A stretch of DNA of 64,000 nt from contig NW_026570322.1 of assembly GCF_019649055.1 (NCBI RefSeq), positions 124,001-188,000 of the forward strand, given 5' to 3'. The position numbers and the translations under genes are program-made. The notes under the pieces are model-generated. The model was not told the DNA's origin. It did not search any database and saw only the letters and a list, made by a program, of their open reading frames with translations. Positions 1-37,575 of the stretch are shown here, piece after piece. The stretch comes from Paramacrobiotus metropolitanus. Taxonomy: Eukaryota > Tardigrada > Eutardigrada > Parachela > Macrobiotidae. Position 1 is the first letter of the stretch. Every line of letters starts with the position of its first letter.

Positions 1-554
1 TCACTGCTATAAATGTGTTCAGAATTAGTTTCAAGTTTGACAGTCTACTGTATTACCTAACCGAAGAAGCCATACAATAATTTCCTGGGTGCCCGAAAGT
101 TTGTTGTAATTTTACTGCACACAATCAATACTGCTACAATTCAGTATGTGTGCACCAAAATATGTTACGCACCAGTCACGCATCTCAAGGTCTCCAGAAA
201 GTCTTCACCTTTGAGCAAATTACTTGCTTACGTAATATCCTGCTTTTGTGCCGGTACAGATAAGATAATTTTGACAGTCTCCATATTCCGTTGATTCAGC
301 CGCCCTTGTTAAAAACTGTAAAGACTCCCTTTATCAAGCAAATTCTGGATACTACTTCATAAAACTGACTGATAATAAATTTTCTACACTTACTTACAAA
401 ACACACGCACACCGATAGATTATGTCGTTATCTATAACAACTTTCCTTGTGGTATCGTTCCTTTTCAGTCGATGCAAAGAGACGAAAGGAGCAATTCATG
501 GCCCATTAGAACGTTCGCAAGTTTTTGTTGACAAGTAAAATAACAGTTTCTACC
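1..554. other. upstream flank of first astacin-like gene
   Basis: AT-rich non-coding sequence with no supportable gene. It lies immediately 5' of the signal-peptide ATG at 555 and presumably holds the promoter and 5' UTR of that gene. I could not pick out a convincing TATA box at the expected distance. Confidence 0.4.
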
Positions 555-3500
555 ATGTTGTACTCGGTTTCGCGGCTGTTAACCTTTGGAGCTCTGCTCA
601 GTGTTGTCCACGGAGCGGGTTATGGCGTACCACGAGCACGGAGATGGCCCCGCAACCCGAACGCTGCAATGGACAACAACGGGTACACTGATCCTTTAGT
701 GAAGATACCCTACGATGTTCCAGACGATTACAGTAAGTATCAATTTTAAAAAAAGCGCAAGGACTACGGTAATGAACTGTCGTACAAATGACGTCACGGT
801 GCTGTTTTTTTTTATATATACCTTTCTGCAGCTATTCCACAGTACACTATTTTCCAAAATGCCATCACGAAGATCTATGAAGCCACCAATAAATGCATCA
901 GATTCGTCCCGTGGAGTGCACTTTATACTGACGTACTTCACGTGACCTATTATATCAATTCCACCACTCAGTACGTTTGTGAACTTGGATGTGTCTTACT
1001 TAAAAATGTCTTACTTGGATGCTGTCTTACTTAATTGTGCTTAACACTGCTGAACCCATACCACTGCCGACAATAAAATTTAATAGTAATACTGTAATAA
1101 TCAAAATTTAATGGTTTACAAACAATGGAAATAATGTACTGGTTATGTCACAACTTTCAGATCTGTCTCGCCTGTATGCCGAGGTCCTCTTGGCTACACG
1201 GCGGGCAGTCAAACTTTGTTGATGGTGTCTAACGGCCGCACCGGTTGTCTGGACCCTGTGGACGGTGAGCGTGACGTCACCCGTATGCTGTTAAACGTGT
1301 TGGGTGTAGTCAGTGAATACCAGCGCCCGGATCGCGATGATGTGGCTAAAAGTCCCATGCAGTTCCTGTCAGGTTATAACGACAAGGTGCTGGATGTTCT
1401 GCAAGCCGATGGGATTTTCAATATAAAAACTGACACAATTCCGCTGTATCCTGATGAGTTTGATATGGATTCCGTCACGATGGTGCGAACGGCGCGGTAT
1501 GCGAAAGATCCTAGTATTCCGGTATTTACACGGACAGACGGCAAAGACGCACCCACAAGCGCAACGCTCAGTCAAAAAGATTGCGAGGCGCTCAATTACA
1601 TGTATCAGTGCAATATAGTCTGCGCCTCCACTTCGGGTAATGTTTACCGTTGTTTTAACGTGAATACGATTAGTGCCGTGCTATAACTACAGATTTCCTC
1701 AAACGTCATCTTCAGTCGGTTTCCTTGAAATTTGTATTTTTAAAGCCTGAATATTGTTTCGTTGATATTAATTTTAAAATGAATTTTGTTGAATTCTGAT
1801 TTCAATTTTCATAACCGAAATCAATATTTCCAAAAAAAAACCGTTGCAGCAAGTGCCACTTTTTCCATCTACAGGAGATTTAGGCCTGCCGAAATTCAAT
1901 AAGGACGAGATATCAGAGAGCTACTTCTGCTGGGAAACCACAACAGCTTCCGTTAACGATGCCGACGTTTTTGAGGACACCATATCTATCGTAGAGGTAA
2001 CACCATAACACTATTGTCCAGAATTCGTACGCGTACTATAGCTGAAAAAACTCAATCAGCATATTCAGTCAAGATATCTTTATATTTGACTGTGCTACTG
2101 ATGGTGAGTGGTGCTCGCTGATGCACATATTGTGAAAATTGGCGCAATAATAAAAATAAAACTAGCCAATTTTATTAACTAACTGAACGAATAGAAGGTG
2201 AACCAAATATAAATTCTATTTTGATTTTTTGTTAGTGTATTAACTGCATATCTGTATATGTACGAGAATAATGTCTGTACTGCACTTCGAAGTTTCTTTA
2301 AATTGCTAATTTGAGGTACAATTATATTGCTCATTTGGGTACAGTCTATACTTACTTACACGCTTTAAATAAGTACTTCGTACCAAGCAAAAGTGTCCAT
2401 TCTACGCGAGCTACAGCGAGCGGCAGTTACTCATGACAGTAACCTATCGCATGGCTGACATACAGATGTTTGCTGACACTATCCGCGAACTTATTGGCTA
2501 ATTCAAGGTCAGCGGCATGCTTTTGCTTGCATAATAATGCGATATTAATGATGAACTTGAAGTATTTCTGCGTTTCAAGATCACGCCACGATTAATTTTG
2601 TTTTTATAACAAAATATTGAGATTTTGGTTGTAAGTAAAACCCACAGTACCGGTCGTCGGGCCTGCCTTTTTCTGACAAGTGAGGGCAGTAAAAACTGGT
2701 AAGTATTTCTATTGCAGTCGCCGATTTATGGCCTGTCGCAGGATACAAACCAGCTTAGTTCTTTCAATTTCCCATAGGATTCCAATCCGATATCGGCTAC
2801 CAGTATATCATACGAGTTCACTCCAGCGATTGGCGTCACAGCAACATCACCTAATTCCGCCACCCCAAAGACCGCCCAGCTGAAGTTAAAAAATTCAATT
2901 ATTAAGGGCTTCAAGTCATCGGTGCGTCTCACCGCCAAAACCGGCAGCACTCCTGTTGCGGCGGATGACATCGAGGTCAGTGTTAACTGCTGGCCCCGAT
3001 TCCAACTGGCGGGGGCGGGGGAGCTGCCTTGTGGTACGCCTGGTAAACGGGGCAAGGCTGCTGCGGACTTCATCGTTGAAAGAGAATGCGCTCGTAGCGG
3101 CGCAACAACATACACACGGTCAGGGTTGCACTGTAACCCGTCTGGTGGAGATAATTTTATTGCCGAATTCCGGAACATCATTACTATTTCGGTACAGCAC
3201 ATTCCTAACCGCTACGCATATGTGACATTGTACAAGCTTGTCCGGTAATTTCTGCCGGTTCAATACAGCGAAGTATACAAATTTGCGTGTTACGCCAAAC
3301 TCTGTGCTACGGCGCGCCACGCCACACTGCTTAAATACTGTACGTAACATGCATCTGGCTGGCAGGTGGCTTGGTGCACGCCAGATAATTCAATGAGAAT
3401 AACAGAAACTGCCTGGCTGAAGGTGGTTAGAATAGAAAACGGTCGGTGTAGTTAATGGGCAATCTATCTGCGGAGCGCATTTAGACAATCCGATAGGCGT

Positions 3501-3861
3501 AGTGACGTGGCCATCATTTTAAGCGCAAATTTCGCGCTAGCTGTACCTTTACGACAGAAATTGCCGGACAAGCTTGTACAGTCTCTGGCTAGCTTTACAA
3601 GTAAACTGTATTGCATTACAGATTAACGATCCCGATGGAACGACACCAGAATTTCTTGGTTTACGAGTGCATCGTGACGGTAATCCTGGTAACGACTTTA
3701 GTAGCAGCTGGAAATACGTTGAAACCTCCAAATCATTAATGGTCACTGCGAGTAATTTTGAACCGGGAAATTATGCCTTTCAATTATTATTCGTTGACCC
3801 GGACGCTGCTGGTCTTCCCATTGCATTCACCTTCGCTGCCACACTTAAGTGTAAAGTGTAA
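555..3861 (+). CDS. secreted astacin-like pseudoprotease, paralog 1
   Basis: Six exons in consistent phase: 555-732, 832-970, 1161-1636, 1875-1996, 2778-3191, 3622-3861, giving about 522 residues. Residues 1-20 are a hydrophobic signal peptide. It is followed almost directly by the RRWPRN segment matching the N-terminus of a mature astacin domain, so no propeptide with an FxGD motif is present. Exon 2 encodes the KCIRFVP helix region typical of astacins. Exon 3 encodes the active-site helix ending EYQRPDRDD, but the HExxHxxGxxH ligands are replaced: Arg147, Met148, Asn151 and Ser157. The Met-turn/Tyr region reads FDMDSVTMV instead of YDYxSVMHY. The domain closes with LSQKDCEALNYMYQC. Exons 4-6 encode a C-terminal extension of about 257 residues with an NCWPRF motif and a terminal LKC, shared by the two downstream paralogs. 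By known astacin chemistry it cannot bind zinc, so a non-enzymatic secreted role is inferred. The start is the ATG before the signal peptide. Confidence 0.8.
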
Positions 3862-5173
3862 ACCACCCTCAACTTTCCTGTAATTTTCCTGTAGTCGTGC
3901 GTGCTCGGTTGTATCCCAATGGGTGAATGTTAGTCTGAGCATGAATTCCTTTTGAGTTTCCCCAATGCAAACATGATTCTTTTGAAAATAATTTAGGTGC
4001 TTATGGCGTGTTATAGTTAAACTGTCTGCTGTTCGTGCGTAGAAAAGGTATCCAACTTGATAAAAAAATGGTACTGTGAATATGACGGAGTCACTGGTTT
4101 GTATTTTGACATTTATCTTTCCATCTTTCTTGTCCTCGCAGTTTTCATACATATTAAAACATTGGGTGGTGTAAAAAGCAGGTATCTGACAAATGATATA
4201 CCGTAGATAAAAGCTAGAATGAACTAGCAATACCAGAATTAGGGGATCATCGGAGCCCCGGCAAGTTATGAAAATAATTGTTACCCTAAAAAAACCAAAG
4301 CAGAGTATTGGCTTTGGCATAGGGGCACGCTGGACAATAAGCCTTTCCACAATGAGTTACGCAAAACACACAATAATTGAATCATATACAGTCTTTACTG
4401 GAGAGATATTTGCTGAACGAAGAAAATTATGGTGTACAACAGTTGTTAACTTTCAGTGGTCATTCGTTTCCGGTGTGCGGTTGCAGAGTATCATGCAATT
4501 TTTTTTTGGGTTACAAATGTACGGCAATAGTACTCCGTCACGTGGACATATGTAGAAACAGTACGTAGTGACGCAAATATCAATATACATCAGGTACTGA
4601 TACCCAGCTTGTTGGGATCAACACCCGCTAGCTACCGAGCTGCCGCGGCCGAGAATCTTGAGAACACCAATGGATCGCAAATCAGTGTTCTAAAAGCAGT
4701 CGTCTGAGCGTTGGTCCACAAGAAGATCATATTTGTTACACAAGGGTAGCCGGTTAATAAAGATCTGTAACCCGCAATACTGCTTATACTTACTTCTACA
4801 CATAACTATCATCTGCATACTTTATCCTCGTTACCTCGTAACAGTCACCCTATTACAGCAACGTTGTTGATTTAACGATTATCTCGCTAATACGCCGGTA
4901 ATTATGCAACTATGTAGTCGTTTGATAGGAAAAGTACAAGTACACCAAGCGTTTTGACCAAAGCAAGTTTTGGTACGAAGGTGACTGACAATAAAATTTC
5001 CGCGCTTATTTGTGTTTTCTTATTTTTTAATAACAATTTCCGTAATCATCAGAATTGCCTTCCGTAATCATCAGAAAACGAGCACCATAATATTATTCGC
5101 AAGAAATTATTGAGATTCTGTTTGCTTTATGTTAAGCGAATTTGTAGTATAGTATACAATTGCTCTCAGTCAA
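3862..5173. other. intergenic region between paralogs 1 and 2
   Basis: No exon-like sequence was found here. Open frames at 3787-4350 (-) and 4268-4555 (+) have no recognisable family and no splice or paralogy support. The last part is the probable promoter of the next gene. Confidence 0.4.
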
Positions 5174-7443
5174 ATGTGGGCCATGCAGGGTTGCATTATT
5201 CTGCTTTCCATAATAGTTGAGTTTTCATATTCCGCCAGTCATCTGCAGCTGCCCAATGGAATGTACAATTTCTGGCCTATCAACCCCAGCGCAACAACAA
5301 CGACAAACAACGGCGACACTGCATACCGAATCAGCCGTGTTCGTATTGGTTATGTTCGCGATTCCATTTACCGTATGTAAAAATAATAGAAAACTCGGAC
5401 AATAATTAGTTTTCTGTGGGCAACATTGTATCACAGTGAAGTATCTGTATGTGTTTAGCACTGGCGGAATATAGCACGCTGACCAACGCTATGGACCGAA
5501 TCAAGACGGCCACAAAAGGCTGCATAGAATTCGCGCCGTATGATCAGTTGCTGAGTAGTGTACCGCAGTCGAAGCTCCACATTCGAAACCAACCTGAAAC
5601 CGGGTACAGGCGATTTTCATTCCACTGACAGTATAAAAATAGTGTGCCATTTGATTGTAATTATAAAGGCACGGCTTTTTTAGTACGATTAATGCTTGTC
5701 GCACCCACCCGGGATACGTTATCGACAGCCAAGGAGCCGGACAAGTTATATTTCTTTTCGGATCGCTGAGTAAAGGCAATAGTACTGCGGAACATGGATG
5801 CCTTGACGACGAACGGGAAACCACACGCTATCTGCTGAATCTCCTTGGCATCGTCAATGAATTCCAGCGTCCTGACCGGGCATCCGTTGGCGTCTCGTTT
5901 CCTAGAGGGTATAACAACCGCACCAAGTCGTACCTACGCAATGAATACCTCTTTTTCCCCAAACAAGATGCCGTGGGCGTTGAACGTGATCTGGATGTTG
6001 ACTCAGTGACCATGATAACACCGGAACAATATGCCGCTTCGCCGGATGAACCGTTGTTCGTGCTAGGCACAGGAGTGTCGGTATCCCCGTCCATCTCGGG
6101 TCGTTTAAGCCAAAAAGACTGCGAGCTGCTGAATCTAATATATGACTGTGGAATTACGTGCGGTATGAGTGTAGTCAGATTAGCAGTAAACGAGCATGGC
6201 CGGCTGACCTCTGAAATCATATTTTGCCGTCTAATAGCATTTAGCCGCATTAAGCAAGATTTTGGTTACTGGAAGTATCGTTTATGTGACATTTTTAATG
6301 TTGCAGCTACATTTAGGTTAATTTGGTTCAAGAGTTCAAAGGCCGCATCGATGTGATGGCCGAGTCTTGTTATTTTTGGGGGAAGCGTATTTCGCATGCA
6401 ATAGATTGCCACGAAGTATTAATGCGTGGATTTTGTGCTAATCCGCAGCTTGTGAATAGGCTCCGCTTTACCGGAAATCGTTCTGAATCCACCAACCCGC
6501 GTCGCTAACTTCCATTGTTGGAATCCTAATGAAGCTGGTCAACCGTTTTCCGCCTTAGAAGAGCGGGGTGAAACAGGAAGAATTGGATCACTAGAATTAA
6601 ATCTTCCCGTGGGAAAACTCACAGATTATTTTTTACTTATAATATGTATTAAGCGATTAAGTACATTACGCCTCCTGTTCTTGCGCAGGCACCATCGACA
6701 AGTACAGATGTACTGCAGTACTCCTTTGGTTCATCCGATCCTAAACTGAAAATACGAACTCAAACGTTTAACAACGCTGACAAGTCAGTAGCGATTGGAC
6801 TGCCGGAGAAGATTTCCCGCGGTTTCCGCACTAGTGCCACGGTGGGTGCCCGGGCGGGAGGCAGAGTGGTGGCCCGAGGCGACATCGAAGTATGGGTTAA
6901 CTGCTGGCCACACTTTCGCGTGAATAACGGCATCATGGTACCCTGCGGCTTTGGAGATAATCCGGAGGAAAACCCGGTATTGGGACTACGTGATGTTCCC
7001 TTTTGCTCCTATGAGCATGGACCACCACTTACTACCACATCCGCATGTGAAGAAGATGGGTCACTGCGACCTGGACAAGTGGTCTTCAGCATTCGGGTAA
7101 AATACAGTGTCGTTTCTTTGTCGATCATCGCCAGGGAACATTTTCGCGGTTGTAGGCAACGGATCCAGACGGTAGTGCCACGCAGTCGGAACTAATTGCG
7201 GTGACTACGAAGAAACCTGATCCAGATTCGGGCGTGCCTGTGGAAGAGGATGAAACCTCGAACTGGATATACAGCACCGAAACCGGGGCTATGATAACGC
7301 TGGCACGCATATCAAACATTAACGAGGCACCTCTAATGGCCTTCCGTGTACTATTTCATGATACAACATATTCCAGCATAGTCAATCCAGAGGGTTCTGT
7401 TCTGTTAGAGTTAACTGTTAATCTGAAGTGTCCAGAAAATTAA
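5174..7443 (+). CDS. secreted astacin-like pseudoprotease, paralog 2
   Basis: Six exons in phase: 5174-5372, 5459-5603, 5684-6162, 6460-6608, 6689-7096, 7156-7443, giving about 555 residues. Phase at every intron is the same as in paralogs 1 and 3. It has a signal peptide at residues 1-20, then FWPINPSA and RVRIGY, matching the WP...IPY start of a mature astacin, again with no propeptide. Exon 2 has the TKGCIEF helix end. The active-site helix ends NEFQRPDRA and lacks all ligands: Arg163, Tyr164, Asn167 and Asn173 stand where His, Glu, His and His belong. The region SVTMITPEQYAAS replaces the Met-turn. Exons 4-6 carry the shared C-terminal extension with HCW, VNCWPHF, DVPFC and a final VNLKC. 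The intact frame and conserved Cys suggest a functional, non-catalytic secreted protein. Function unknown. Confidence 0.82.
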
Positions 7444-8387
7444 TAGGTTCTTGTAGTGTTTCGTTGCTAACATTTGAAGTTTCTTGATGGTGCACAGATG
7501 AAACAGAAGGCAAAAAGTGAAACGACTGACGGCACGTCGATAGATCTTTGTTTCAAATTGTCACTTGTACAAGGCCCGTTCATTTAAGGTTTTTTGTAGA
7601 ATGTAAAAATCGCGTGCCGTTTACCATACATTTTAAATTTTATGGAAATCAGTAGCGTGTCGGCATAGAATGGAAATCATGGAATGGAATCATTTTATGG
7701 AAATCAGTAGCGTGTCAGTAGCGTAGAATTAACAAAAGTCCCCACCGGCAGAACACAGCAGCTGTATTTCACCTCAAATGTAAGTAACTGCATTAGCACA
7801 GTAAGTAGTAAGTACCGTCTTTTTGTGCTGCGTTATGGTACAGAATGCAGTATAAATGTGACATTCTTACTGAATACTATATCTGCGTACTCTTATCACT
7901 GCCCAACGTTTACTTTTTTTCGCTTCCGTCATCTTAATCTTTCACAGAGTAATAATGTTATGCAAGAGTACTTGTACTACCTTTTCTTCGTTGTGTAATG
8001 AAGTGCCACTTACTGCATGCCGGCTACGAGCGCTACGGCGCAATGCAAATTCGCAGCTTTCTCAACAAGAAGCGTTATCGTTCTTTGTTTAGAAGCCAGT
8101 GTGATAAGACATACGTTGATTCATTTCCTTTCAATACCTGTGACGCGTGGCTGCACAAGTTTCAAGTTAAGTCCATTACTATCGAACTTCTCTTTTAATT
8201 TATTATTCTGCATTTTCTTTCGTCACTAGAATAGGCGTGCGTTCTGCAATTTAAATGTGCGAGCATAATCTACTATAATAATAATTATGCTTTGCTTCCT
8301 ACGTTGCAATGGCTATTGATTGAATTTAATGATATAAATTTCCCGTTTCCGGAAACAGAAATTTATTTTTTTATTTCGCGGCAAAGG
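7444..8387. other. intergenic region between paralogs 2 and 3
   Basis: Non-coding. A short imperfect direct repeat around TTTATGGAAATCAGTAGCGT occurs at about 7638-7660 and again at about 7692-7715. No gene is seen. Confidence 0.4.
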
Positions 8388-10750
8388 ATGTGGACGGCAG
8401 CATATTTTCTCATTTTATTCGCTGTTTTTGCTTTTTCTGACGCTGCCAGTCATATGCGCAAGCCGAATGATGAATACGATTTCTGGCCCGTTAATCCCAA
8501 TGCCACACTAGTGCCAGATGCAGGCGAGATAATGTACCAAAGAGGTCGTGTAAGGATCGGTTATGATTTGGACAGCATGTACCGTAAGTATATTACCACA
8601 TCCTCGAAACGCGATAATACCTTATTACCGTTTCCGGTCAAGGTTATCTGTTTGCAGCTTTAACGGAGTACACGACGCTGGTTAGCGCAATGAACCATAT
8701 CAAAACCGCTACAAAAGGCTGCATAGAGTTCCTACCATATGATTTGATAGCAGGCACCTTACCTTTATCACGATTACATTTCCGCAATCAGCCAATATCC
8801 GGGTAATCACATGTTCCTGTTGAACGAATAACAGCATCTTATCTTATACTAATTTTGGGCTGATTTCACACAGTTCAATTAACGCGTGTCGAACGCATCC
8901 AGGATATGTCCGGAACAGCAGCGGCGCCGGTCAGCAAGCGCTGTTCTTCGGATCCAGAAGTAAAGGCACCAGCGCAGCGGAGCATGGTTGCCTCGATGAT
9001 GAACGCGAGACCACCCGTTTTCTGATGAAAATGCTTGGAGTGGTCAGTGAATTTCAGCGTCCGGATCGTAGCGCAGTCGGACTGAACTTTGGAACCGGGG
9101 TACAATAATAAAACCAAGACATACCTGCGGAATGAATTCCTGTTCTTTCCTGAACAAACTGCTCACACTCACAAACTTCTCGATATGGTCGATCTGGAAT
9201 CCGTCACCATGATCACACCAGAACAGTTTGCGGCTTCGGAGAGTGACCCAGTGTTTACGTTCGCCAATGGAATGTCACTGATGCGGTCTATCTCAGGGAA
9301 ATTGAGTCTTGCGGATTGTGAAGCGTTGAATTACATGTATCAATGTGGAATTCGTTGTGGTGTGTATGTGTGTACGCTTCGTATTATTGCTTACAGTATT
9401 TTCAAGAGTACTTACATTGTACACAATTTACGACCTTACAGGTTCAACAATGCCTGAAATTACCATGGTACCAGCCACGCGAGTCGTTAATATGCACTGT
9501 TGGACTGCACAGCAAGCAGGTCAACCAATTTCTGCTGCGGACGAAGCGAAGCAAATAGGCGAAATCGGAAGAATAGCATATCCAGTTAGTACAAGACACA
9601 AGTAACCCGTAGATTTCTGCTTCTCAGTTTCATCTGCATGTACAAAACAACCGATTTTTTAATATATCTGTGAACAATTAAAATCGTATTTTCGAATGTA
9701 TATTATTACTTAATGCCGGAAGATGTTTGCACTGGGTATCTGCCGTCTTCCAAACTATGCAATATGAGCGTAAATGCAAGCCAATCGTTTATAAATTATA
9801 CCCACAGTAGTTACGGTCACGCAAACGCTGCCACCAGTGACAGCACTTGCGCGAAACTGTACTCAATTTGATGGAAATTATATAGGCGCCGGCTTCAGAT
9901 GTTCGCTATACATTTGGGTCATCCAATTTCCGGTTAAAGGTAAGAAATGACCCTTCAGCGACGTCCGCTGCAGTTGGATTGTCGCAAACAATTTCCACGG
10001 GCTTCGAAACCACCTTCACTGTGGATGCTCGTGTTGGAAGTAAAGTTGTCGCTACCGGAAGCATCGAAGCATGGATAAATTGCTGGCCGCAATTTAGCAT
10101 CCGAAATCGACTTATAGATTGTCGAAACGACGAAGCGGATGATCTTGGACCTTCTCTTGGATTAAGAGACGCACCACGTTGCGTTAGCATGGAAGACGAT
10201 CCCACATTGTCGGTACCTTGCTCAAGTGAATTGATTTTTTTGTCCAATACGGAAGCTTTCCGAGTGGCTGTAAGTGTGCATACTTGCAGCAACATGTGAC
10301 AAATGACAGGTGACAAACATTTGGAATTTAAAAGCAAAAGAAATTTATTGCATGCAGTTTTTGCCGCATCCCCTCGTCAGCAAAACGAAAACTGTTTGTC
10401 AACAGTGCCTTCGTTGTTCGATACATTTCCTTCCTATTAAAAATACATATGATTGTTTTAAACGAGAAAATTCTGTACAGGTATTCGATCCGGATGGATT
10501 CGGAAATACCGAATCTGAAATGATTGAGGTTGTTAAGGGTGAAACGGAAGAAGACGAAACGTCCGCCTGGATCTATGACAATGTTACCAGATCTGTGCGA
10601 CGATTGGGCCCTCTTGAAGATTTGGAAAACACTCCACCTCGCATTTTCCGAATTTTATTTCGAGATACTACGTATTCAAACAATGTTAACCCTGATGGAT
10701 ATATAATATTGGAATATTTCGTGAATCTTAAATGTGAAGAACCGACGTAG
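8388..10750 (+). CDS. secreted astacin-like pseudoprotease, paralog 3 (one frame break)
   Basis: Six exons: 8388-8583, 8658-8802, 8874-9359, 9442-9584, 9886-10269, 10481-10750, about 540 residues if one extra base in exon 3 is discounted. Signal peptide is at residues 1-21, then YDFWPVNPNA and RVRIGYDLDSMY, the mature astacin start without propeptide. The helix reads ETTRFLMKMLGVVSEFQRPD, so the ligand positions hold Arg, Phe, Lys and Ser. The C-terminal extension (INCWPQF, DAPRC, NVNPDGYIILEY, VNLKC) parallels paralogs 1 and 2. In exon 3 a run of four G at 9097-9100 puts two TAA codons in frame at once. Dropping one G restores alignment with paralog 2 and the splice phase, so this is either a sequencing error or a recent null allele. 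Nearest neighbour is paralog 2. Confidence 0.78.
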
Positions 10751-12103
10751 GCTGTCTGATGCAAAATGGCCCAAGAGGTTGTCTAAAGCAAGTTCATGAC
10801 CGAAAAGCTGAAGCGCTTTTGGGGAAATTTATGATATATCAATTGATTCAATTCTAAAATGTGTTCATAGTTAAGTGAGTTTCTCAAAGGCAGTGGTCTC
10901 CTAAACTGCTGAACTTTTCACAATGCTTACCTACGTTAAAACTAAAATGCACCGAATAAGCTCCAGCACTCTTAAAAAATGAATCATTAAAAACAGTAAA
11001 AAATTTGAATAATGAAGCTGTTACAGGTTTTTTCAGTGGCTACAGTTTCGGTTGTTCATGTTTTGACGTTTGTTACGGTTTGTAGATTTTATTAGTGTTG
11101 TTATAATTTTGTCCTTCGCAAGTAGCTGAAACATAACATATCGTTAATAACCACAGTTAATTATCGTCAACAATGTTGACGATAATTAACTGTCTACAAT
11201 TGACGATACCGGTATCCTTTGCACTGGCATTTTTCCCAGCATGACGTTACCCATTTGCCTCCTCACTTTTTTTCGTTTTGTATACCTGGCTTTAATAGCA
11301 GTTTAAAATGTTTATGTCATGTTAATATTTATCGGCTGATATTCACTATTCAGCATTTGTGCTGTTGCTGCTTTATAATGCTATTTTGTGCGCTGAACTC
11401 CTGCCCCAGGTACGTATTCCATATATAGCTCAGTAAGTCACAAGATTGCTACATTAGTGTTTATAATGAAGGCAGTTATTTAAAAACAAACTCGAAGAAA
11501 CTTGCAGTGATAACTGTAACGAACGACACGCTCGCAAGTCAGAACATGTACAGCAGTTTCACTGGCAAAACGGTAGTATGGTAAGTAATGCATTGCCAAT
11601 ACATAGGATACCACCATTACAGCGGTATCCACAAACTGGTGTTTGGTCACGCCCACTGGACCGTTGCGGATGAAACTATTTTTTTAAGTATTCCCAAACA
11701 ACAAAAGAAATTTTTCTGATGGGAAAGGCGTTGACCTTGCCCTGGTAAAACAGATTACAGTGAACACTTAGGGAAACACATACATACGGTAGGCATGCCG
11801 CATACAGCTAGAGTATTATGCAAGGGTAGTAATGGCAATGCGGAACAGAACAACAGGGGAGATTCATAGGGATACGTAACCATTGGCATGCATGGCATAT
11901 TGACACAATATGTTATGTATGCTGCACAAAAAAAAACTACGAGTATAAAAACACTCCTTTAATTTTTCCGCCATACAGATACACTAGGCACTACGCTCGT
12001 ACTGGATTTGTGTCTGGCGAATGGCGAGTCTGGCGTTGTCTTGCGCTTGCGCCACGGATGTCGCCGGGTTCATGATGCGACCGCCTACAAACCATAGTCG
12101 CAA
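10751..12103. other. intergenic region
   Basis: No gene supported. It contains a perfect hairpin at 11153-11193, listed separately, and AT-rich sequence. The right end is the 3' flank of the minus-strand gene ending near 12104. Confidence 0.4.
11153..11193. repeat. perfect 20-bp inverted repeat
   Basis: Arms at 11153-11172 and 11174-11193 are exact reverse complements around one central base. The left arm is ACAGTTAATTATCGTCAACA. It could form a cruciform or RNA hairpin. No surrounding element or target duplication was recognised. Confidence 0.85.
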
Positions 12104-15572: not shown

Positions 15573-17200
15573 TTAAAGGGGGGTTACAGGGCCGTTCGGG
15601 GAAATTCCTTGAGCGTTGCCAGCTTGTTGGTTAAAGTTGTATGGTACTTGCTGGTTAAAGTTTTGCGGGACTTGTTGGTTAAAGTTTTGTGGGACTTGTT
15701 GGTTGAAGTTTTGTGGTTGTTGGTTATTCGAGGGTCCGGGGAAAGGGGCACCGTTGATGTTGCCACCGTTGGGAGGAGAAGGAGGTGGCATACCGTTAAC
15801 GCTGGGTCCAAAGTTGCTGCCACCCTGGGGCGGCGGGAACGGGGGTGGCATGCCGTTAAAGCCCGGTCCAAAGTTGCCGCCACCCTGAGGCGGAGGGAAG
15901 CTGGGGAACACACCGTTGGTAGGTCCGAAGTTGTTGACACCCTGAGGCTGGAAGCTGGAGGGCATACCGCTCACGGATTGGAAGTTGGTGCTACCCGGGG
16001 CACCGATGAACTGGCCAGGCGTAGGATTGAAGCCGTTCACTCCCGCATCAGGTAGCGGAAAACTTCCGTTCGGTCCCGTAGAATTGAACGTCAGGATCAT
16101 AGAGCTGTTAATGGCAACAGGGATGGATCCGTTCATTGGGTATGAAAAGGGCGGATTGCTGAAGTTTCCGTTAAATCCTGGCCCAAATGGATGGCCGGGG
16201 AAACCATGGAACGGTCCATTAGGATGTCCCTGGAACGGTCCTCCTGGATGTCCCTGGAAAGGTCCTCCTGGGTGTCCTTGGAAGGGTCCTCCTTGATGTC
16301 CTTGGAAGGGTCCACCATGTCCCTGGAAACCGTGACCCGAAGGCTTTCCACCAAACGGTTTCTTTCCACCAAAACCAAAAGCTCCGCGGCGACCGCCCTT
16401 ATGACCTTTCTGTTCGTATTTGACTTTGAAGTCCTTCTCCACGGTCACTTTGACGGGGCACCAGAGGCGAGCTTCTTGAGGAGGATGGCTTTCAGGGCCT
16501 TTCCGAATTTGCCCTTACCGAACTTGCCCTTACCGAATTTGCCGGGTTTGCCGTGGGGGCGACCGTGGGGACGACCGTGCGGGCGGCCTTCCAACATTCC
16601 CGGATGATCTTGCGCTTGCACTTCACCGCTCCCAGATTCGCTAGATTCGGAATCACTGTCCGAGTCACCATCTTGATTACCGTCCTCATGGCTGTCCGAC
16701 TCGGAGCTGGATTCCGACGAGGGACCACCTGGGTGACCGTAGTGTTGGGGAGCACCTCCCGGATGACCTGGATGGTGTTGAGGAGCATGGTGTCCACCGA
16801 ACTGATGGTGTCCGGGGTGGTTAGCTAGCGATCCGTTGTGAGGATGTCCAACGTTCCCGTGTGATTGGTTACCGGCGGTTTGAGTGAAGTCAACAATGGT
16901 GGTGTTGTTGAGGGTCGAGTTACCGGTGAAGGTGGTGTTGCCGGTCACGGTGTTGTTGCCTGACACAGTGCTGTTATCCAGGGTACCGTTCTTCTCGGCA
17001 TTGTGATGGTTGTGGGGTCGCGGCCAGGCTGGGCGGTCCGGGCGAGCGTTCCCGTTAGAGAACAACTCGTGCTGTTTGCCTGCCGAACGGGTCTGTTGGG
17101 CGCCACTATCATCCGATGATGTGGGCAGTACCAGTCCCGGTGGCAGTTGGTGCGCCGTGGCGCAGTAGACGAAGAACGCCGTGACTATGAGAAACTTCAT
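15573..17200 (-). CDS. secreted low-complexity Gly/His/Asn/Pro repeat protein, one frame break
   Basis: Single-exon minus-strand gene, about 540 residues if two overlapping frames are read as one. It starts with an 18-residue signal peptide (MKFLIVTAFFVYCATAHQ). Next come a region crowded with NxT/NxS sites, a His/Gly/Pro region, a Ser/Asp/Glu block, GRPHG and GKFGK repeats, then at least five GPFQGHPG-type repeats, Pro/Gly-rich FGP units and three to four QNFNQQVP repeats. The frame changes at GGGG 16455-16458 (plus strand). Before it the protein ends LASGAPSK and stops; in the other frame it continues APVKVTVEKDFKVKYEQKG, so one miscounted G explains the stop. Composition suits an extracellular structural protein such as a cuticle, egg-shell, mucin or glue component. 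That role is inferred from composition only. A TATA box lies about 80 bp upstream of the ATG. Confidence 0.72.
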
Positions 17201-17276
17201 CTTGGAGGCGGTAATCCGGACACAAATGGAACAAATTAAAATACCTGACTGACAATTACAAGTTCCGTGTTGCCGG

Positions 17277-17283
17277 TTTTATA
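17277..17283 (-). promoter_or_regulatory. TATA box of secreted repeat protein gene
   Basis: The minus strand reads CTATAAAACC here, 77-83 bases upstream of the ATG at 17200. Spacing fits a TATA-driven promoter with a 5' UTR of about 50 bases. Confidence 0.55.
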
Positions 17284-19563: not shown

Positions 19564-20555
19564 ATGAATATATTGTGGAATTTTTTGAAAGATACGCGGG
19601 TTTTGTTGGCTCTTTCCATCGTGGAGGTCATTCTAGCAGTAGCAGGATTTGGCGCGAATTACTACAACCTCTTTTATGGTAAGAAGCGGAGTAGATATTT
19701 TCATTTTTTATAACTGAGAAGCTGAAAAATTCTTGCTTAAATTTGCAAAACGTTCTACTTTCTCCACTTTTTGAAAGCCTGGTTATACCTGACCTTTGGA
19801 CTTTTTTATAAGCTTAGAAATTTAGGCTTAAATTTTGCAAAACGTTCTATCTGTACTTTCACCATTCTTTGAAAACTTGTTTATACATGACCTGCGCACT
19901 TCGTTTTTATTTTTTATTTTTGTTTCTCGAAGAGAGCTGCCACGTGACATTAGTGCAGCCCTCATGCATCCTGTAATCGCTGAATGTATCGCTTTCAGGG
20001 GTGCTGTGGACGGACGCCATGTTTCCTATCTTGCAGTTTCTGGGGTTCATCATGTCCATTCCCGTGTACGGTTTTCAGTTGGGGAACGGCATCTATCTCA
20101 TCGTGTATTGTACCCGTGTCTTGTGCGGCCACCGAGACCCGGCACGCTTCGGTAGTTATCTCGCTGCGGAACGGAACAGGGGGGTGTGCGGATGCTGTGC
20201 AGTTTTCCTGGCACTGGTGCTCCTTGCTGGACCCATGGAGTTTGCGTTTCATGCCGACCCGTTCGTCCGGTCACTGGGCGTGTGGGGCGCAGCCTCCTAC
20301 ACGTTCCAGGCGGAGTTTCCCGGACAGTTGGTCATGCTGGGGTGGATTGTGGTACACGCTGTCGCTTTCGTCGTGGCAGTGCTTATTGCCTGGGGTAGCG
20401 CTAATGTTTACCAGGAGCTGAAAGGCGAGACAAATTCTTTGGACCACTCGGGATCCCAGAATTCAGCACCGCCACTATACAAGAAAATTAACAGCGATCC
20501 CATTCCAGATGCTTGCTCTACGGAATGTCTGTTGTCCAACGCAGTCGCTTCCTAA
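19564..20555 (+). CDS. four-TM protein with PPLY tail, copy A
   Basis: Two exons, 19564-19678 and 19999-20555, joined in phase 1, 223 residues. Exon 1 encodes TM1 and ends with NYYNLFYG. Exon 2 encodes TM2 (FLGFIMSIPVYGFQLGNGIY), a Cys-rich loop with GHRDPARFG, TM3, the family signature SLGVWGAASYTFQAEFPGQL, TM4 and a cytoplasmic tail with APPLYKK. The Pro-Pro-x-Tyr motif resembles WW-domain ligands, which is general knowledge of such motifs. The family itself I do not recognise; a tetraspan or MARVEL-like fold is possible but unproved. It is nearly identical to the copy at 40988-42028, so the duplication is recent. The orphan first exon of an astacin gene follows on the same strand. Confidence 0.82.
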
Positions 20556-21979: not shown

Positions 21980-24900
21980 CTACACCGTGATCTTCATTTC
22001 GACGGATTCATAGGACGGTGGTGGCATGTTTCGTCCATCCGAGTGGTCGAGCAGTCCCTGTTTTTCGTTGGTGGACGCAGCCTTCGGATCGTTGCTGACG
22101 GGACCATAATGCGAAGCGGCAAGGCATACCACAACCATACTGGCGATTAGCGTCAGAAGCGATCCGAGCATGACAAACTGTCCGGTCCGGTCAGCATCGA
22201 CGACATGGTGGATGGTGCCCCGGACGCCCAATTTGGAGATGTACCAATCCGAATCAAACGCTATCACACAGAACCATGCAAAAATCATGGCCCCCAGGCA
22301 GACGCCGCAGATCTGGCTGCAGGCAGTGAACATTTCACGGTCGGCGATGGATGTCGGATCTCGGTGGCCGCGATGTACTTGCACACCGGCCTCCATGAAA
22401 CACATCCCGGCTGCCAGCTGTCCCAAGTACACTGGGATGGAGAGGACAAAGGCTAGGATTTGTAAAATCGGAAAATGGTTGGCCGGTGCCAGCGCTCCTG
22501 AAAGAAAATTGTTCCACAGATTGAAATAATATCAATGATTGTGATGCATGCAAATAATCTTTGGCACGTTTTCTTCAGGAAATCTACACGGAGCCATAAA
22601 TATATTGACCAGCACCATCTGAACCAGTAAATATTTGCGCTGAATAATTTATTTTGGGAACGAAAGCTGCACATTCTTCTTATCTTATACATGTTGCAGA
22701 GTTTTGATGGTTTTATAAATTTGGCAAGACAGATGATCAAGACTTCGATGTGGTTGTTACAGTGCCAACAATGCGAACAATTATTGGATGTTAATTTAAC
22801 TTGCTAATAAGCCGCGCTCTACTCTATATCCTGTACGTAGTACCTGTCCTACAAAGTGGTAAAGGTCACGATTGTGACTGATATGCTTGCGATGATATCA
22901 TCGATGAAATGTAATCCGCCTTGCCTTAGCCAGTCGGTCGATAACTGTTGAGGGAATGCCAATCTACAATTTGCATATCACATCTATATTATGCTGTTAT
23001 TTTTTATATTAGTTATTTTAGCAGGTAATATTCTTTGCGCCATGCTGATAACAGATCATTTAGCCGCATTTATAAAACCGAGATATCGGACAAAAACTCC
23101 AAAAAATGGAGCCGTTAGCGGTCTCAAAGCATCATAATCCGCCATGACCTTGCTCCACTATATCAGTGTTCTTGTTAAGGTGTAATATTCAGAACTAGGG
23201 ATAAACGTATTATGTATTTATAAATGGATGGCCAATGTCAAAACGACGGCGGAATTTTCTGCCGGCCGAAATTAAGAATTTTTCAGGTCAAAACGACGGC
23301 GGAATTTTCTGCCGGCGGAAATTTTGTCAGGTCAAAAAGACGGCGGAATTTCTCGTGGTCAAAATGCCGGCGGAATTTTTGTAACTTTTTAATTTCATTT
23401 ACTGTGCATATTTAAAAGCAATTTGGAAGAAAAATGTATCTTACATAGATTCGGGCGCTGCGTTATCAATATAAGCCTCTTTTTCCGGTCGCATGTATGT
23501 ACAGTCTGTATGTGCGTTGTTGCGTTTGCAGTTTGCTTAGAACGCGCGGATGAGTTCAAGAGAATACCTGAGCCGCGCAAAAGAGACAAACAACTAACAA
23601 GGTGTCTGACAATGGCTCTGTGGCGATGACACTGAGGTGTGATCTAGTCTGATCACTTTGGAGCTTTTCCTGGGAAGACTCACAACTTCTCTGAATGTAG
23701 ACTGGCACAGCTAACTCAAACGAAGAATCTCTACGCGCAGAGACACACAGAAACCGCGCCGATCGACGCATTCTTGCGGCAGAAGCGGCTGCACCACAAA
23801 ATTTATTATTCTTTCACGCGCAGCGCGGCAGCCGCTGCGGTTTGTTTTAAAAAATTGGCATCTGCAGACTTTTGCGAAAACAGACTAGTGCATTACCTGG
23901 TTATTACATTATCTGGTATCTTAATACTGGCATGGAGGAAGGTTTCGAAACGGATGACGCCGGCGGCAATGAAAGCGAACATCCGGCGTTAGTAACACAG
24001 TTTAGTTTTACTTAATTTTTTATTAGACAATTCTGCGGTAAATATTATACTTATAATTATTTGTGTTAATGCGGCTATGTCGTGCTCATTGGATATTTAG
24101 ATATTTATCGGAGATAGATACTGCCAATTATATCTGTCTACCGTAAAAATATTGCTGTTAAACGCTTAAAGAAAGCAGGCGTTACGCACTCACTTTGCAA
24201 TTTGCATTGCATTACATTAAGCAAGAAGTTGCATGGCACACTGACTACGCGCAAAATATGCTCGCGCGCATAAAGTTCCCATTGTGTTATTAAATCAGTA
24301 TTCTTTCAAATTTAAATAACATAAGCGATTATATTGCCCATGTCCACAGTTTAACGATAATAATACTATTAGTATTTAAGGTGATTTTGTTTTTTAACTT
24401 TAAAAACGCATTTAGTGTTCAGTGATCATACATGCTAAATGTAATAATTTCTTAGCTTCGGCACACTATGGTATTTCAAGCCCCACCCTACGATGAGCCA
24501 AAAGAGGCGTCGAGAATTTTGCTTGGACCTCATCGACCGTGACTACGAGACACCCAACCAGGAGCCCTTCGAGCCCGTAACTACGATGCCGATGGCCTTT
24601 CAAAACGCCATAGGTGATGGAATATTCCTGGCACAAATGGGTCGGAAGACACCGGAACTACTCTGAGTCCCGATGGCTGCGGCAGATGAAAAATAATGGA
24701 AGCACAGAGACTGGGGATGTATACACCACCTACTATCTCAATATTACTTGCCGGACATTTCATAAATACGCACGTGTCAGCACTTTTTTGTTATTTTGAT
24801 AGCTTGTTTAGCGGCCCAATGAGGATTAACTGATTGGTATTCGAGTACGTACGTATGTCTTTTTGTCATTGTTTTTGTTTGCTTGCGTTTTTTTTTAATT

Positions 24901-27688: not shown

Positions 27689-28764
27689 CTAATCCGTGGC
27701 CAGGTGACCCCCTGATTCGTGGCCAGGGGTCGAAGACACCTGATTCGTGGCCAGGTGATACCCTGATTCGTGGCCAGGGAGTGAGCTGGATCCTGATACT
27801 GGCCAGGATGTTGCGGCTGCCTTCCGGTGCGGTTCTGTGCGTACCATAGCGAGAGAGCAGCGCGAGTGAGGAGGTGCCCCAAACAGATGTGGTACGCGCA
27901 GACTTTGCGGGCGAATGTAGCGCTTGAACGAGGACGACTTCCATTGTCCCCGTTCACATATAACTTCCGTGGACAGGCCATCAGCGGCGGCCGAAGTGGC
28001 GCCGCCAATTCGAAAGGAATGTGATGAGTAGCGGCCGTGATCCTCCCCATCTGGAAGGGTTATCTTCCGTGCACGCGTAAGGTCAAAGCGCGTGAGAAAG
28101 CGGCCGCTGCTGTTGATAAAGAATGGCAGGTAGGGAGGCTGTCGATGCTGACGTTGCTGTGCATAGGTAACACAGGCATTGTAGATGATCGGCGCTTCGC
28201 TAGCGGACATGGACAGTGTGGTTCCTTTCCTGTGCTGGTCTGTTTTTGACTGTTTAATCGAAAGCTGCAGCACAGTGTCGTTCCAGTACACGTCTTGCAT
28301 CAGGAGGTAGCCGACGGGTTGAAAGCAGTCGGGGATAGCGAAGTCAGTTCCGAAACGCGGAGGAGGAAACGATGAGCCATCGTAAAGGCGGCCCAAAACA
28401 TTTGCTGGTCGTATTGAATTAGGGACGTTAGGTGCAGTCTGCTTGGAAGGCGTCCCAGCAGTTCGGAAGTCACCGGTAGGCGCTGGTCTGGTTGTGTTAC
28501 GGTCGTCTGGCGGGCACCTTCTACAATCTGCTTCAGTCTGGGATTGGCTGTCGGGTCTGGCATGTTTCGCGACAAGTGGTACCGGGCTACAGCGGATAAA
28601 TAAACATTTATGGTCGAGGATGAGGACTTCCGGTTGAACAGGTGCGCTACATAATCTTCAACAGTCTCTTGAGGTGCGGGCCATGGCTTTCTCTTCGTTA
28701 ATCTGCAAAACTGCTCGAAGCTTCGCTCTCCATTGGCGTAAGCTCTTCGGGTAGCAGGAGCCAC
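27689..28764 (-). pseudogene. tyrosine recombinase of DIRS-like element, frameshifted
   Basis: The N-terminal frame (28764-28300) has the core-binding region with LTKRKPWPAPQETVEDYVAH and STINVYLSAVARYHLSRNM, then MAHRFLLRVSELTSL. The C-terminal frame (28396-27689) has SIKQSKTD, the HSFRIGGATSAAADG box holding the catalytic His-x-x-Arg, and GQWKSSSFKRYIR with the nucleophile Tyr. These are the recombinase residues known from DIRS and Ngaro elements. The two frames overlap out of phase near 28320. A minisatellite runs into the 3' end. Confidence 0.8.
27695..27785. repeat. minisatellite of about 20 bp, four copies
   Basis: Units around CTGATTCGTGGCCAGG repeat about four times with alternating spacers (GTGAC, GGTCGAAGACAC, GTGATAC). 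It lies at the end of the recombinase frame and may belong to the terminal region of the retroelement. Confidence 0.75.
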
Positions 28765-28856
28765 TTCGGCGGTGAAAAGGTCACCCGCGGTGAGATGGTT
28801 ATTGGAGGCTCTTTCCCCGTCAGGAACGGTCGCAGTCGTGTAAGCAAATCTGGCGG

Positions 28857-29642
28857 TTATATGCCGTCGACATTCGCCAGCGGATGGAGTTGACGGAAAC
28901 GTTGCAACTGCAATCGGGATAACGCGTCAGCAATATTGTTATCGGCACCCGCGACGTGCGTTATTTTTATCACAAAATTAAACTGAGCAGTTACAGAATG
29001 AATTCTACGTATAAGCTCCATCACCGCTTGGTTCCTGCAACTGCTTGACGACCATGTCTGAACTGTTCCTGTATTATCGCTGTGGAACATAACACGTTTC
29101 CCATGAAACTTTTTATTCCACACAACACCTGCTACATAAATCGGGTACATTTCGAGAAACGTTATTGGCGGGCTCAACTTAAGCAGCCACGTCGGCCATC
29201 CTCCGTGAAAATATTCATTACCGAGTACTCCTCCATAACCTATCGAGCCTGCTGCATCAGTGTACAAGTGCAGTACACTGACTGGTAGCCATTCTGGCTC
29301 CACAAACCCGGCCGTCCCGTTCCATGCCGGCAAGAACTGTCTCCACCACGCGATATCGCGACGGAAACCGTCGGTCAACGTAATTCTGTGATACAGCCGG
29401 TTTACTTTACAGCTAAGCTCGATCTTGCGTCTCAGAAAAATTCGGCTTGCAGGTATACATTTTGTCACAAAAGATAACTTTCCAACAAGGCTTAAAAGCT
29501 CACGCTTTGTGCATTGCGTACACGCGGAAAAATTTTCGAGCAATGCCGTTAACTCAGCTAAACGAGCAGCAGATACTGATAGCGTAAATTTTTCGCTGTT
29601 GATTTTGACACGCAAAAATGCTATCACTGTAGCTGGGCCCAC
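28857..29642 (-). pseudogene. RNase H region of DIRS-like element
   Basis: Open for about 260 codons. It begins with the thumb/connection region (LLSLVGKLSFVTKCIPASRI), then HLYTDAAGSIGYGG (first Asp), FHSDNTGTVQTW (Asp) and THVAGADNNIADALSRL (last Asp). This is the RNase H arrangement of DIRS and gypsy elements. The frame is intact but the flanking domains are broken, so the element is unlikely to be autonomous. Confidence 0.82.
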
Positions 29643-29672
29643 CAGATTTTTGTCATTTATGGAACGCCCAAA

Positions 29673-30173
29673 TTACGCCAAATACTTGCATACTGACTGA
29701 ACCTGCATCACTAATCTCTCACAAGCTGGACTTGCTGGTTTATCGCACATGAAATAATCGTCGAGAAAATGCAGAAATGTATCGCTACCAGTGCATTTTT
29801 TAAAAATCCACTCAAGCGCGCTAGCAAACGCGTCGAATAAAAATGGGCTTGATCGCAAGCCAAACGGGACCACTACATCATGGTAAAACATTCCTTCCCA
29901 CTTGTATCCCAGTAGGTGCCAGTCGGCCGATCTAACTGGCAAATTACGGAACGCGCTTTCGATATCGACTTTCGCCATCAACGACCCTCGACCATGAAAC
30001 ATTTTAACTGCATCATATACTCCTATGTATGTGAACGAGTACTTATTTTTCGGGATATAGTCGTTCACGCTGAACCCAAATGCCTGCGACAGGTCCATTA
30101 TTACCCGGTGGCCTGATGGTCTTTTTGGACGCAGCCCGAGCGGATTTACGACAAAATGCGGGTGCGTTTCCAC
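29673..30173 (-). pseudogene. reverse transcriptase of DIRS-like element
   Basis: Contains VNPLGLRPKRPSGHRVIMDL, then LMAKVDIESAFRNLPV (motif A Asp), VVPFGLRSSPFLFDAFA (motif B) and FLHFLDDYFM (motif C with LDD). This order is typical of DIRS-type reverse transcriptase. The preceding N-terminal region is in another frame (30499-30146), joined by a shift near 30180. Confidence 0.82.
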
Positions 30174-30504
30174 TTGAAAAGGACCTTTCGTGTGGTGGCA
30201 TTCACTTCTTTTATGATCATTGCTGTGATAACGTGTGGGTCAAGAAGAGCCGAGCGTGCGTTTGCGGTAAATCGGCGAATTTGCGGGCCTTCGTACCCGA
30301 TGGCAAAACCATACCTGAAACCCTGTAACAGGAAACACACAGACTCACGGTCATTATGCCCTACCATTAGTTCAGCGAGTCTCTCGGCGGAAACGGGCAC
30401 CGCTACTTCCGGCCTTAGCGTTGACATTAGCGGCGGCAGGCTTATGTTGGGCTGAATCGTGCTCGTGGATGGTGTGGTCGGCCGCCCTGCATGTTCCACA
30501 TAGG

Positions 30505-31150
30505 ATTTACGTACAATAACATTATAAAGTGCATAATATGCTCGTTTCCTTCCGTTTTCGGTACTAGTAACCCTTCAGCTGGGTTTCAGTGAACAACGGA
30601 AAAGACTGATACATGTGAAAAGCTGAACGCATTATACGTGTAATTACTGAATATAAGTTTTGGTTTAAAATTATTGTTACTGATTACTAATTTGCCAACA
30701 GAAACTGCAAACTGTTACTTAACATAGGTAAGTGCTCAAACTTCAGATCCTAAAAACGGTACCACAGAGGCCGCTATAATTACTAAATGTAATAAATAAT
30801 TAGTACCGCAATGGCTCGAAAAAGACATTATGAATTTATAAATTTATTGAATTTATGAACTCATTTATTTAGCCTTTGTTCTATCGACGTATCAGTTAAT
30901 GACCGTTGTTATCGCGCATTGAGAACGCCATGAAAAAAAATATCCTACAGTATAAAATACTGGGTTGCCTCAGGATCTTGGTTAGAATGTTCCTTGCTTC
31001 TGGCAGTAAAAACATTTATTAACAATTTGACCCGCAATACTGGAATAGTCAATTACTGGATTAGTTTTCAGAAATCGTTAGCGATCTTTACATTAATTCC
31101 CGTGGAATACGGTAATACTGTTAATGATATCTTGAGCATTATAATTGAAG
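30505..31150. repeat. inverted copy of module sequence
   Basis: The stretch 30505-30740 is the reverse complement of about 51050-51295, and 30770-31150 is the reverse complement of about 48635-49010 (also seen directly at about 55380-55770). With the truncated retroelement on its left, this indicates an inversion of roughly 3.6 kb spanning about 27553-31145. Confidence 0.7.
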
Positions 31151-36411: not shown

Positions 36412-37575
36412 TTAGACACCCTTGTATGGTGGCGGAGCTGAATACTGCACTCCCTTGTACCGAGTCGGAGCTGAATCCTGACTTTCCAAGTGGACAAGAA
36501 GCGTTGCCGCGTTTTTCTCGCGTTCAAGCTCCTCATAAAGATCCTTACTTCGCGCGGTAAGAAACATTGCCAGAACGAATTCGACGGCCAGAATCACAAC
36601 CAATCCCAGCAGGACCAGCTGTCCGATGGGTTCGGTCCGGAACACCTGATGAACGGCACCCCACACGCTCAGTGAGGGGACGAAGTGCCGGGCACGTTCC
36701 GAGAACTGGATTACTCCGAAAACGATCAGAAGAAGCAGGTAGAGTCCACAGAATATGCACAAGATCGGGTGGCGTTCACCATGATTTCTCCCGAAGCGTG
36801 CCGGGTCGCGGAGGCCGCGCAGGACACGTATGCAGGACACGATAAGATAGCCGCCGCTGACCAGTTGGAGAACGTATACCAGGGTGGTTGCGATGAACGC
36901 CAGAAGTTGGAGGGTCGGGAAATCGTTGACCGTAAGAAACGCTCCTAAAAAAGGTTAAAAAAACAGATTTAGCAAAAAATACATCACCACTTTCAGCATA
37001 ATATAACTTTTGAATGGATTGGTTATATTATGCTGCTAAGGTCACGTGGTAGTAACACTGTAGTTTTTACCCAGGGTAATTTCGTTTACTGCTGTTGCTC
37101 GCGTGCCGCTGGCGCTTTAGATCGATAATCAACGGTAACCGGTATGGTATCAACACATATTATATTTTGTGTGATGTCAGGCTGATTCAAGCAATCGATG
37201 ATATCACTGCAATACAGTAAAACCTACAGCGTACCAGAATAAGAGTAGATCCCATGGTATGTGTACGCCTTTACAACGGGAGTCACTGAGAGTAGTTTAG
37301 ATTAGCGCCGTCTGTTATTAATTATACGCTATTACCCAAAAATCGGCAAGTGGGACTTCAAGAAAATTAATAGTTCCAGGTTAAATTTACGAGTAGTGTT
37401 AGTAGCGTTTCAGAGTTTCACAACAACGAAGAATCGCATCACAATAAATTCGCTTCTTACCATAAAAGAGGCTGTAGAGATTTGCAGCGAATCCCAGCAC
37501 TGCCAGAACAACTTCCGCGACGGAAAGTTCCAACAAACTGCGCGTGCCTTTCAATAAATTTCGTACTGCCGTCAT
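36412..37575 (-). CDS. four-TM protein with repeated YKGV tail
   Basis: Exon 1 is 37575-37461 and exon 2 is 36944-36412, phase 1, 215 residues. TM1 ends NLYSLFYG. Exon 2 has TM2 (LLAFIATTLVYVLQLVSGGY), RGLRDPARFG, TM3, SLSVWGAVHQVFRTEPIGQL, TM4 and a tail with two tandem motifs, APTRYKGV and APPPYKGV. The tandem Pro-Tyr motifs could give a bivalent WW-type ligand (inference). Compact intron of about 0.5 kb. It has no nearby near-identical copy, unlike the genes in the duplicated block. Confidence 0.8.

Follow-up and report, generated by a model that had tools for sequence, protein, structure and literature searches.

The window analysed here, a stretch of 64,000 nucleotides (positions 124,001–188,000 of contig NW_026570322.1) from the genome of the tardigrade Paramacrobiotus metropolitanus (169.8 megabases in 533 contigs), carries three paralogous genes, hereafter A, B and C, which encode astacin-like proteins that have lost the residues of the zinc site. 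The genes are arranged head to tail, all on the plus strand. Exon borders were set by hand from the sequence through mutual comparison of the three genes, which yielded the following features (aa, amino acids):

555–3861 (+): gene A, 522 aa; exons 555–732, 832–970, 1161–1636, 1875–1996, 2778–3191 and 3622–3861; GT-AG borders, open frame
555–732 (+): gene A exon 1, with signal peptide, about 10 residues and RWP; without propeptide
1282–1314 (+): dead active-site helix of gene A, RMLLNVLGVVS where active astacins have HExxHxxGxxH
1875–3861 (+): gene A tail, exons 4–6, with NCWPRF and terminal LKC; possibly two degenerate cadherin-like repeats
5174–7443 (+): gene B, 555 aa; exons 5174–5372, 5459–5603, 5684–6162, 6460–6608, 6689–7096 and 7156–7443; GT-AG borders, open frame
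5826–5858 (+): gene B dead active-site helix, RYLLNLLGIVN
6460–7443 (+): gene B tail, exons 4–6, with NCWPHF and terminal LKC
8388–10750 (+): gene C; exons 8388–8583, 8658–8802, 8874–9359, 9442–9584, 9886–10269 and 10481–10750; frame change in exon 3
9016–9048 (+): gene C dead active-site helix, RFLMKMLGVVS
9097–9100 (+): GGGG run at the point of the gene C frame change; assembly error or recent break
9442–10750 (+): gene C tail, exons 4–6, with NCWPQF and terminal LKC

All introns of the six-exon models are GT-AG. A preliminary description of the locus had reported identical intron phases for the three genes, which is correct for A and B (1,2,1,0,0 in both). For gene C, which reads as two open pieces of 191 and 356 aa, the match lies in its six exons, whose borders agree with those of A and B, and in the second piece, which is open from exon 3 to the stop.

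Gene A matches the Pfam Astacin model with 30.8 bits (cut-off, 22.5; E = 3e-7), and gene B and both pieces of gene C returned no Pfam match up to E = 1. Exon 3 of gene B is 45% identical to exon 3 of gene A. A sequence search of the PDB with gene A matched structure 3lqb (E = 3.9e-4), a zebrafish hatching enzyme that is also the top match for an intact astacin of the same genome; the same search with gene B gave chance-level matches only (best E, 2.6). The retained framework was as previously described with regard to the WP start, the LSxxDCExLNxxYxC domain end and E.QRPDR after the site, all present in A, B and C. The four domain Cys of two disulfides are kept too (by eye), and the full EXXRXDRD is found in A only. 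The three proteins resemble astacins (MEROPS M12A, Pfam PF01400) in that they are secreted, have the same domain by sequence, retain its four Cys and carry xxRPDR after the family Glu. They differ in lacking the zinc His, the catalytic Glu, the SIMHY Tyr and the FXGDI propeptide, which define astacins in the relevant passages of a family review (PMC9848320).

In place of H,E,H,H, gene A has R,M,N,S, gene B has R,Y,N,N and gene C has R,F,K,S, so that the three zinc His and the catalytic Glu are replaced in every gene, as the preliminary description had it. The SIMHY Met-turn, with its zinc Tyr, is gone as well, and SVTMV or SVTMI stands in its place (by eye). A hidden exon that might restore the site was ruled out on the coding strand because HExxH is absent from all plus-strand frames of positions 1–11200; a single match lies on the minus strand.

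Across the genome, the astacin model matches at least 164 exons. Relatives were gathered by genome searches with A and B, and then with their relatives, and reference sequences were picked from the Pfam list; some of the fetched loci yielded no core (e.g. L003, L032 and L035). The 85 astacin cores examined comprise 21 with H,E,H,H and 64 without, a proportion that is not that of the genome because dead genes were found by means of dead genes and active ones were taken from the Pfam list. Replacement in these 64 cores is patterned. The first His position holds Lys in 29 and Arg in 22 (K/R, 51/64), the catalytic Glu position is occupied in 53 by a hydrophobic or aromatic residue (Y, F, L, I, M, W or V), the second His position holds Asn in 20, Ile in 15, His in 7 and other residues in the rest, and the third holds Asn in 31 and Ser in 13 (N/S, 44/64). 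The family Glu is kept in 63 of the 64, a count favoured by a profile that had been seeded with a pattern requiring this Glu. Such regularity at the first and third His positions could also be expected of a site that was re-wired rather than lost, with K/R and N/S forming a new catalytic or metal site. Given the hydrophobic or aromatic residues at the Glu position, the varied second His position and the lack of an apparent general base, we regard this as highly improbable.

Tree building with masked site columns yielded a branch, supported at 91/82 and recovered in 89% of 200 bootstrap trees, that sets 58 of the 64 non-intact cores apart from all other rows. No row of this group has the full site, and some keep one His (e.g. 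HFNN in L030 and KTHS in L025). All six partial cores fall outside it, and five of them join the 21 active rows in a 26-row set (99/95); a core was termed partial if at least two of H,E,H,H were left, except for L050, L088 and L089 (one left each), which had been labelled by hand before the tree was read. The partial losses outside the 58-row side (LKHY in L050, HLHH in L054 and L065, and RLLH in L088 and L089) are, as placed by the tree, separate inactivations. In an earlier tree of 55 rows, 35 of the 38 rows without an intact site fell together on the same side of a branch (96/92). The bootstrap of the 85-core tree had not settled (0.986 versus the wanted 0.99), and both trees rest on 72–74 columns, so that inner forks are unsure. 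Genes A, B and C group with relatives C96 and C446 in a set of five genes (99/95). The simplest reading is that the site was lost once and that many duplications came after. The loss is older than the A/B/C cluster, and the trio makes up a minor share of a far larger family.

As a separate observation, a dead astacin is followed by the same kinase-like open reading frame (ORF), identified by eye, in both L001 (C96) and L002/L003 (C446). This shared arrangement represents a segmental duplication or divergent haplotypes.

The same data bear on whether the dead domains act as decoys or regulators of active astacins by competing for the same substrates, inhibitors or partners. There are many active astacins for them to act upon (at least 164 exon matches; 21 of 85 cores with H,E,H,H, one of them in the window at 43.0–44.4 kilobases), and pseudopeptidases can regulate their active cousins according to sections of a review of such proteins (PMC11266112). 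A substrate decoy, however, should retain the cleft, and here the cleft residues have been re-made (K/R and N/S) in a family that is old and diverse; moreover, profiles of the C-terminal tail, described below, match no fetched active-astacin locus. We therefore consider a decoy or regulatory function unlikely.

Absence of the propeptide had been claimed for the three genes, and their first exons bear this out. Each protein begins with a hydrophobic signal. Counted from the start Met, and hence with the signal peptide, the Trp of WP is preceded by 30 residues in A, 33 in B and 32 in C (the latter two numbers by eye), which leaves too little room for a propeptide. Known astacin propeptides span 34–486 residues and have FXGDI in common, as stated in the passages concerned (PMC9848320). 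Across the dead genes, the table of N-termini comprised 32 rows, of which 11 were dropped as chance by eye; the remaining 21 rows represent 19 N-termini judged real by eye. In thirteen of these, Met and Trp are 28–33 residues apart, a stretch that contains the signal peptide. The other six are longer, with 37–73 residues (L015, two in L020, L024, L031 and L032), which speaks against a loss common to all, and absence of the propeptide is consequently not established for every family member.

Active paralogs with the switch motif include an intact astacin of the window (MEGDI), L046 (FHGDI before WP) and possibly L044 (IFGDI). A loose FxGD pattern gave eight matches in the 21 active-set stretches, corresponding by position to two clear propeptides (window and L046) and one possible (L044), in a control limited by the many active-set stretches that come without N-terminal exons. 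The pattern gave 14 matches in 12 of 36 dead loci. Since these counts fail to separate the dead from the active sets, the propeptide argument rests on position, assessed by eye. An IFGDI in L066 was rejected as a propeptide as it sits ahead of a signal-peptide-like stretch, and the near-identical dead copies L016 and L028 have IFGDV just after the Trp.

Signal-peptide cleavage alone would place the N-terminus about 10–14 residues before WP (cleavage sites by eye); the position of the N-terminus of crayfish astacin relative to its Trp served for comparison. In mature astacin, the N-terminus pairs with the family glutamate, E103, according to the astacin review (PMC9848320). Because this glutamate is retained, a mature-like fold may arise from signal-peptide cleavage alone, and the new N-terminus could pair with it as in the mature enzyme. 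With no activity to restrain, the propeptide would have been lost as well.

Selection was assessed through ratios of non-synonymous to synonymous substitution rates (dN/dS) from Nei–Gojobori (NG86) counts. The C96–C446 comparison gave 0.24 for exon 3, 0.19 for exon 4, 0.51 for tail exon 5 and 0.34 overall, and the A–C446 comparison gave 0.18 for exon 3, 0.37 for exon 5 and 0.26 overall. Values were 0.09 for C3c–C75 (25 codons) and 0 for the C87 pair (dS, 0.04); of the remaining compared pairs, one was identical and one saturated. Every comparison with measurable dS thus fell between 0 and 0.51, and the values near 1 that would be typical of drift were not found. On these counts, the astacin part is under strong constraint and the tail under weaker constraint. 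Because dS between B and C is saturated, selection on A, B and C themselves is deduced from the proportion of non-synonymous differences between B and C (pN, 0.31), from the B–C exons with finite dS (dN/dS, 0.18–0.32) and from the relatives.

Several results weigh against a maintained function. Over all exons, synonymous sites of the B–C pair are saturated (proportion of synonymous differences, pS, 0.77; pN, 0.31), and tail exon 5 evolves faster (0.51). Frames had been described as kept. That is correct for A and B with their open six-exon models but not for gene C, where the frame shifts in exon 3 at the GGGG run near 9097–9100. The C96 relative likewise has a frame change in its last exon, so that some family copies may be decaying. 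These two frame changes are what speaks for dead duplicates that drift as pseudogenes. As to gene C, nanopore assemblies are prone to run-length errors, so the GGGG run may conceal an assembly error. The published P. metropolitanus assembly was built with Canu, with nanopore data among its reads, according to the genome paper (PMC11191345). Furthermore, pN is low relative to pS both ahead of the frame change (0.20, with pS of 0.82) and past it (0.29, with pS of 0.70), so that the change is a young break or else an assembly error. Set against drift are this recent or spurious origin of the gene C break, the open frames and GT-AG borders across six exons in A and B, the dN/dS of 0–0.51 where measurable and the patterned dead site of a single 58-sequence group, and we judge pseudogenes to be a very unlikely explanation.

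Selection for a non-enzymatic secreted role, as proposed in the preliminary description, is accordingly supported by the 58-sequence dead group, the patterned replacements, the kept Cys and the dN/dS values. We consider it reasonably probable that A, B and C are secreted, non-enzymatic pseudo-astacins of an old clade with a binding or scaffold role.

The C-terminal region with NCWPxF and a terminal LKC had been reported as unrecognised. Both elements are present in A, B and C, and the tail proved to be common only to eight fetched genes. Profiles of the tail halves match, among the loci scanned, A, B, C, C96, C446, C85, C66 and C124 only, with all other rows at E ≥0.76. As the profiles were built from these eight genes themselves, only the absence elsewhere is informative, in a scan that omitted cadherin, fn3 and Ig control loci and in which many loci had been fetched too short to reveal a tail. 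The eight tail-bearing genes correspond exactly to one subclade of the core tree (97/83).

A faint resemblance to cadherin repeats (PF00028) was detected. In C85, C66 and C124, the second tail half reads like ATDPEGG...F.ITSDGIL...AVDSTGG, which resembles such a repeat; the DPDG of the tail lies near the cadherin D.D site and NCWPxF near the NDNxPxF linker, whereas the LDRE and the acidic linker of cadherins are gone. Against 20 cadherin repeats of the same genome, the second half scored 23.5 (hhalign probability 28%, weak; pairwise E, 6e-4) and the first half 17.9 (probability 5%, weak; E, 0.009), and both halves aligned in consistent register. The full tail sets scored 8.1–12.5 against 19 fn3 and 14 Ig domains. 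As controls, reversed sets gave 12.5 and 10.4, and 60 column shuffles each reached at most 11.2 (first half) and 13.8 (second half).

A cadherin-like nature is disfavoured by the weakness of these hhalign probabilities, by the lack of any cadherin among Pfam matches of the tail at a limit of E = 10, and by the subsets of window genes, for which the first half scored 14.5 against cadherin versus 14.4 against fn3 (second half, 24.0 versus 15.8). In addition, comparison of the first tail half with the second gave no match (score, 11.6; probability, 0.3%). PDB sequence searches with the tail profiles found no cadherin, and their best matches (E, 0.64 and 2.3) were taken as chance, as was the sole Pfam match of the tail, a phage tail tube model (0.064). 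Overall, the chances that the tail consists of degenerate cadherin-like repeats appear about even; its fold would then be a beta sandwich.

The remainder of the window contains the following features:

43000–44400 (+): intact astacin gene (HEIMHTLGFLHE), with MEGDI propeptide motif and SIMHY exon
50150–50960 (+): decaying duplicate of this intact astacin, with the first zinc His changed to Gln and SIMHY lost; perhaps part of a wider local duplication
19977–20552 (+), 21983–22531 (−), 36415–36954 (−), 41357–42025 (+), 45441–46022 (−), 51784–52317 (−), 58615–59298 (−) and 62059–62586 (−): repeated ORFs on both strands, by eye one multi-membrane-span family; one representative scanned, no Pfam match
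27692–30574 (−): ORFs, by eye a tyrosine-recombinase retroelement; an RVT_3 hit (E, 0.0051) stayed under the cut-off, and the recombinase-like ORF had no Pfam match
15576–17278 (−): low-complexity ORFs, Gly/His/Pro-rich and with Asn/Gln repeats; one piece scanned, no Pfam match

No tRNA was found in the window. Elsewhere in the genome, several active astacins among L036–L049 run, by eye, into a long leucine-rich-repeat-like region; for the two of these loci that were scanned, Pfam gave only Astacin and a chance-level Coat_X.

A close known parallel is provided by the ADAM pseudopeptidases (M12; ADAM2, 11, 22 and 23), metzincins without zinc ligands and base that have been kept as extracellular binders, as described in the ADAM passages of the pseudopeptidase review (PMC11266112). 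According to the same passages, ADAMs have a prodomain, disintegrin, Cys-rich and EGF regions and, typically, the Met-turn (PMC11266112). A, B and C differ from them in being of the astacin type, without prodomain or SIMHY and with a different tail. M14 carboxypeptidases are unrelated to astacins in fold and family, and their dead members AEBP1/CPXM, metallopeptidases too, offer an analogy of role only. For M14 pseudopeptidases, that review describes interactions with extracellular collagens (PMC11266112).

In the main text of the astacin review, the terms 'inactive', 'non-peptidase' and 'cadherin' are absent, and its tardigrade passage lists four accessions (PMC9848320). The pseudopeptidase review, in the passages used, deals with ADAMs and other groups and contains a single mention of astacins, as metzincins (PMC11266112), and the main text of the P. 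metropolitanus genome paper mentions neither astacin nor protease (PMC11191345). Literature searches on tardigrade astacins, inactive astacins and astacin–cadherin proteins returned no such family among the matches listed, most subscription papers lying outside the search. Pseudoproteases as such are already known; the dead family that includes A, B and C is a pseudoenzyme clade of the astacin domain.

Taken together, we envisage an old clade of secreted proteins in which the astacin fold would have been kept, although the zinc site (three His and the Met-turn Tyr) is gone together with the catalytic Glu. The cleft, where Lys/Arg and Asn/Ser now stand at the former ligand positions, would probably form a protein- or glycan-binding groove, and the proteins may act as extracellular matrix or binding proteins. 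In the tail-bearing subclade, the domain would be followed by perhaps two cadherin-like beta-sandwich repeats acting as a spacer or adhesive stalk. A broader proposal, which we hold to be rather doubtful, is that tardigrades made a secreted protease into a large and varied array of binders, at least 58 sequences strong, with a zinc-less, relined cleft and no maturation step, some on cadherin-like stalks, as a recognition or adhesion system. If this were true, ligands from the matrix, from microbes or from gametes could differ from one member to the next.

A large clade that pairs loss of the catalytic site with loss of the propeptide, along with a distinct tail in one subclade, constitutes a natural experiment on the zinc-less astacin fold. 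It makes testable whether the retained salt bridge between the glutamate and the N-terminus serves structure and not catalysis, and whether the matrix or active astacins are bound by the dead ones. It also means that astacin counts in such genomes can include a sizeable non-enzymatic group.

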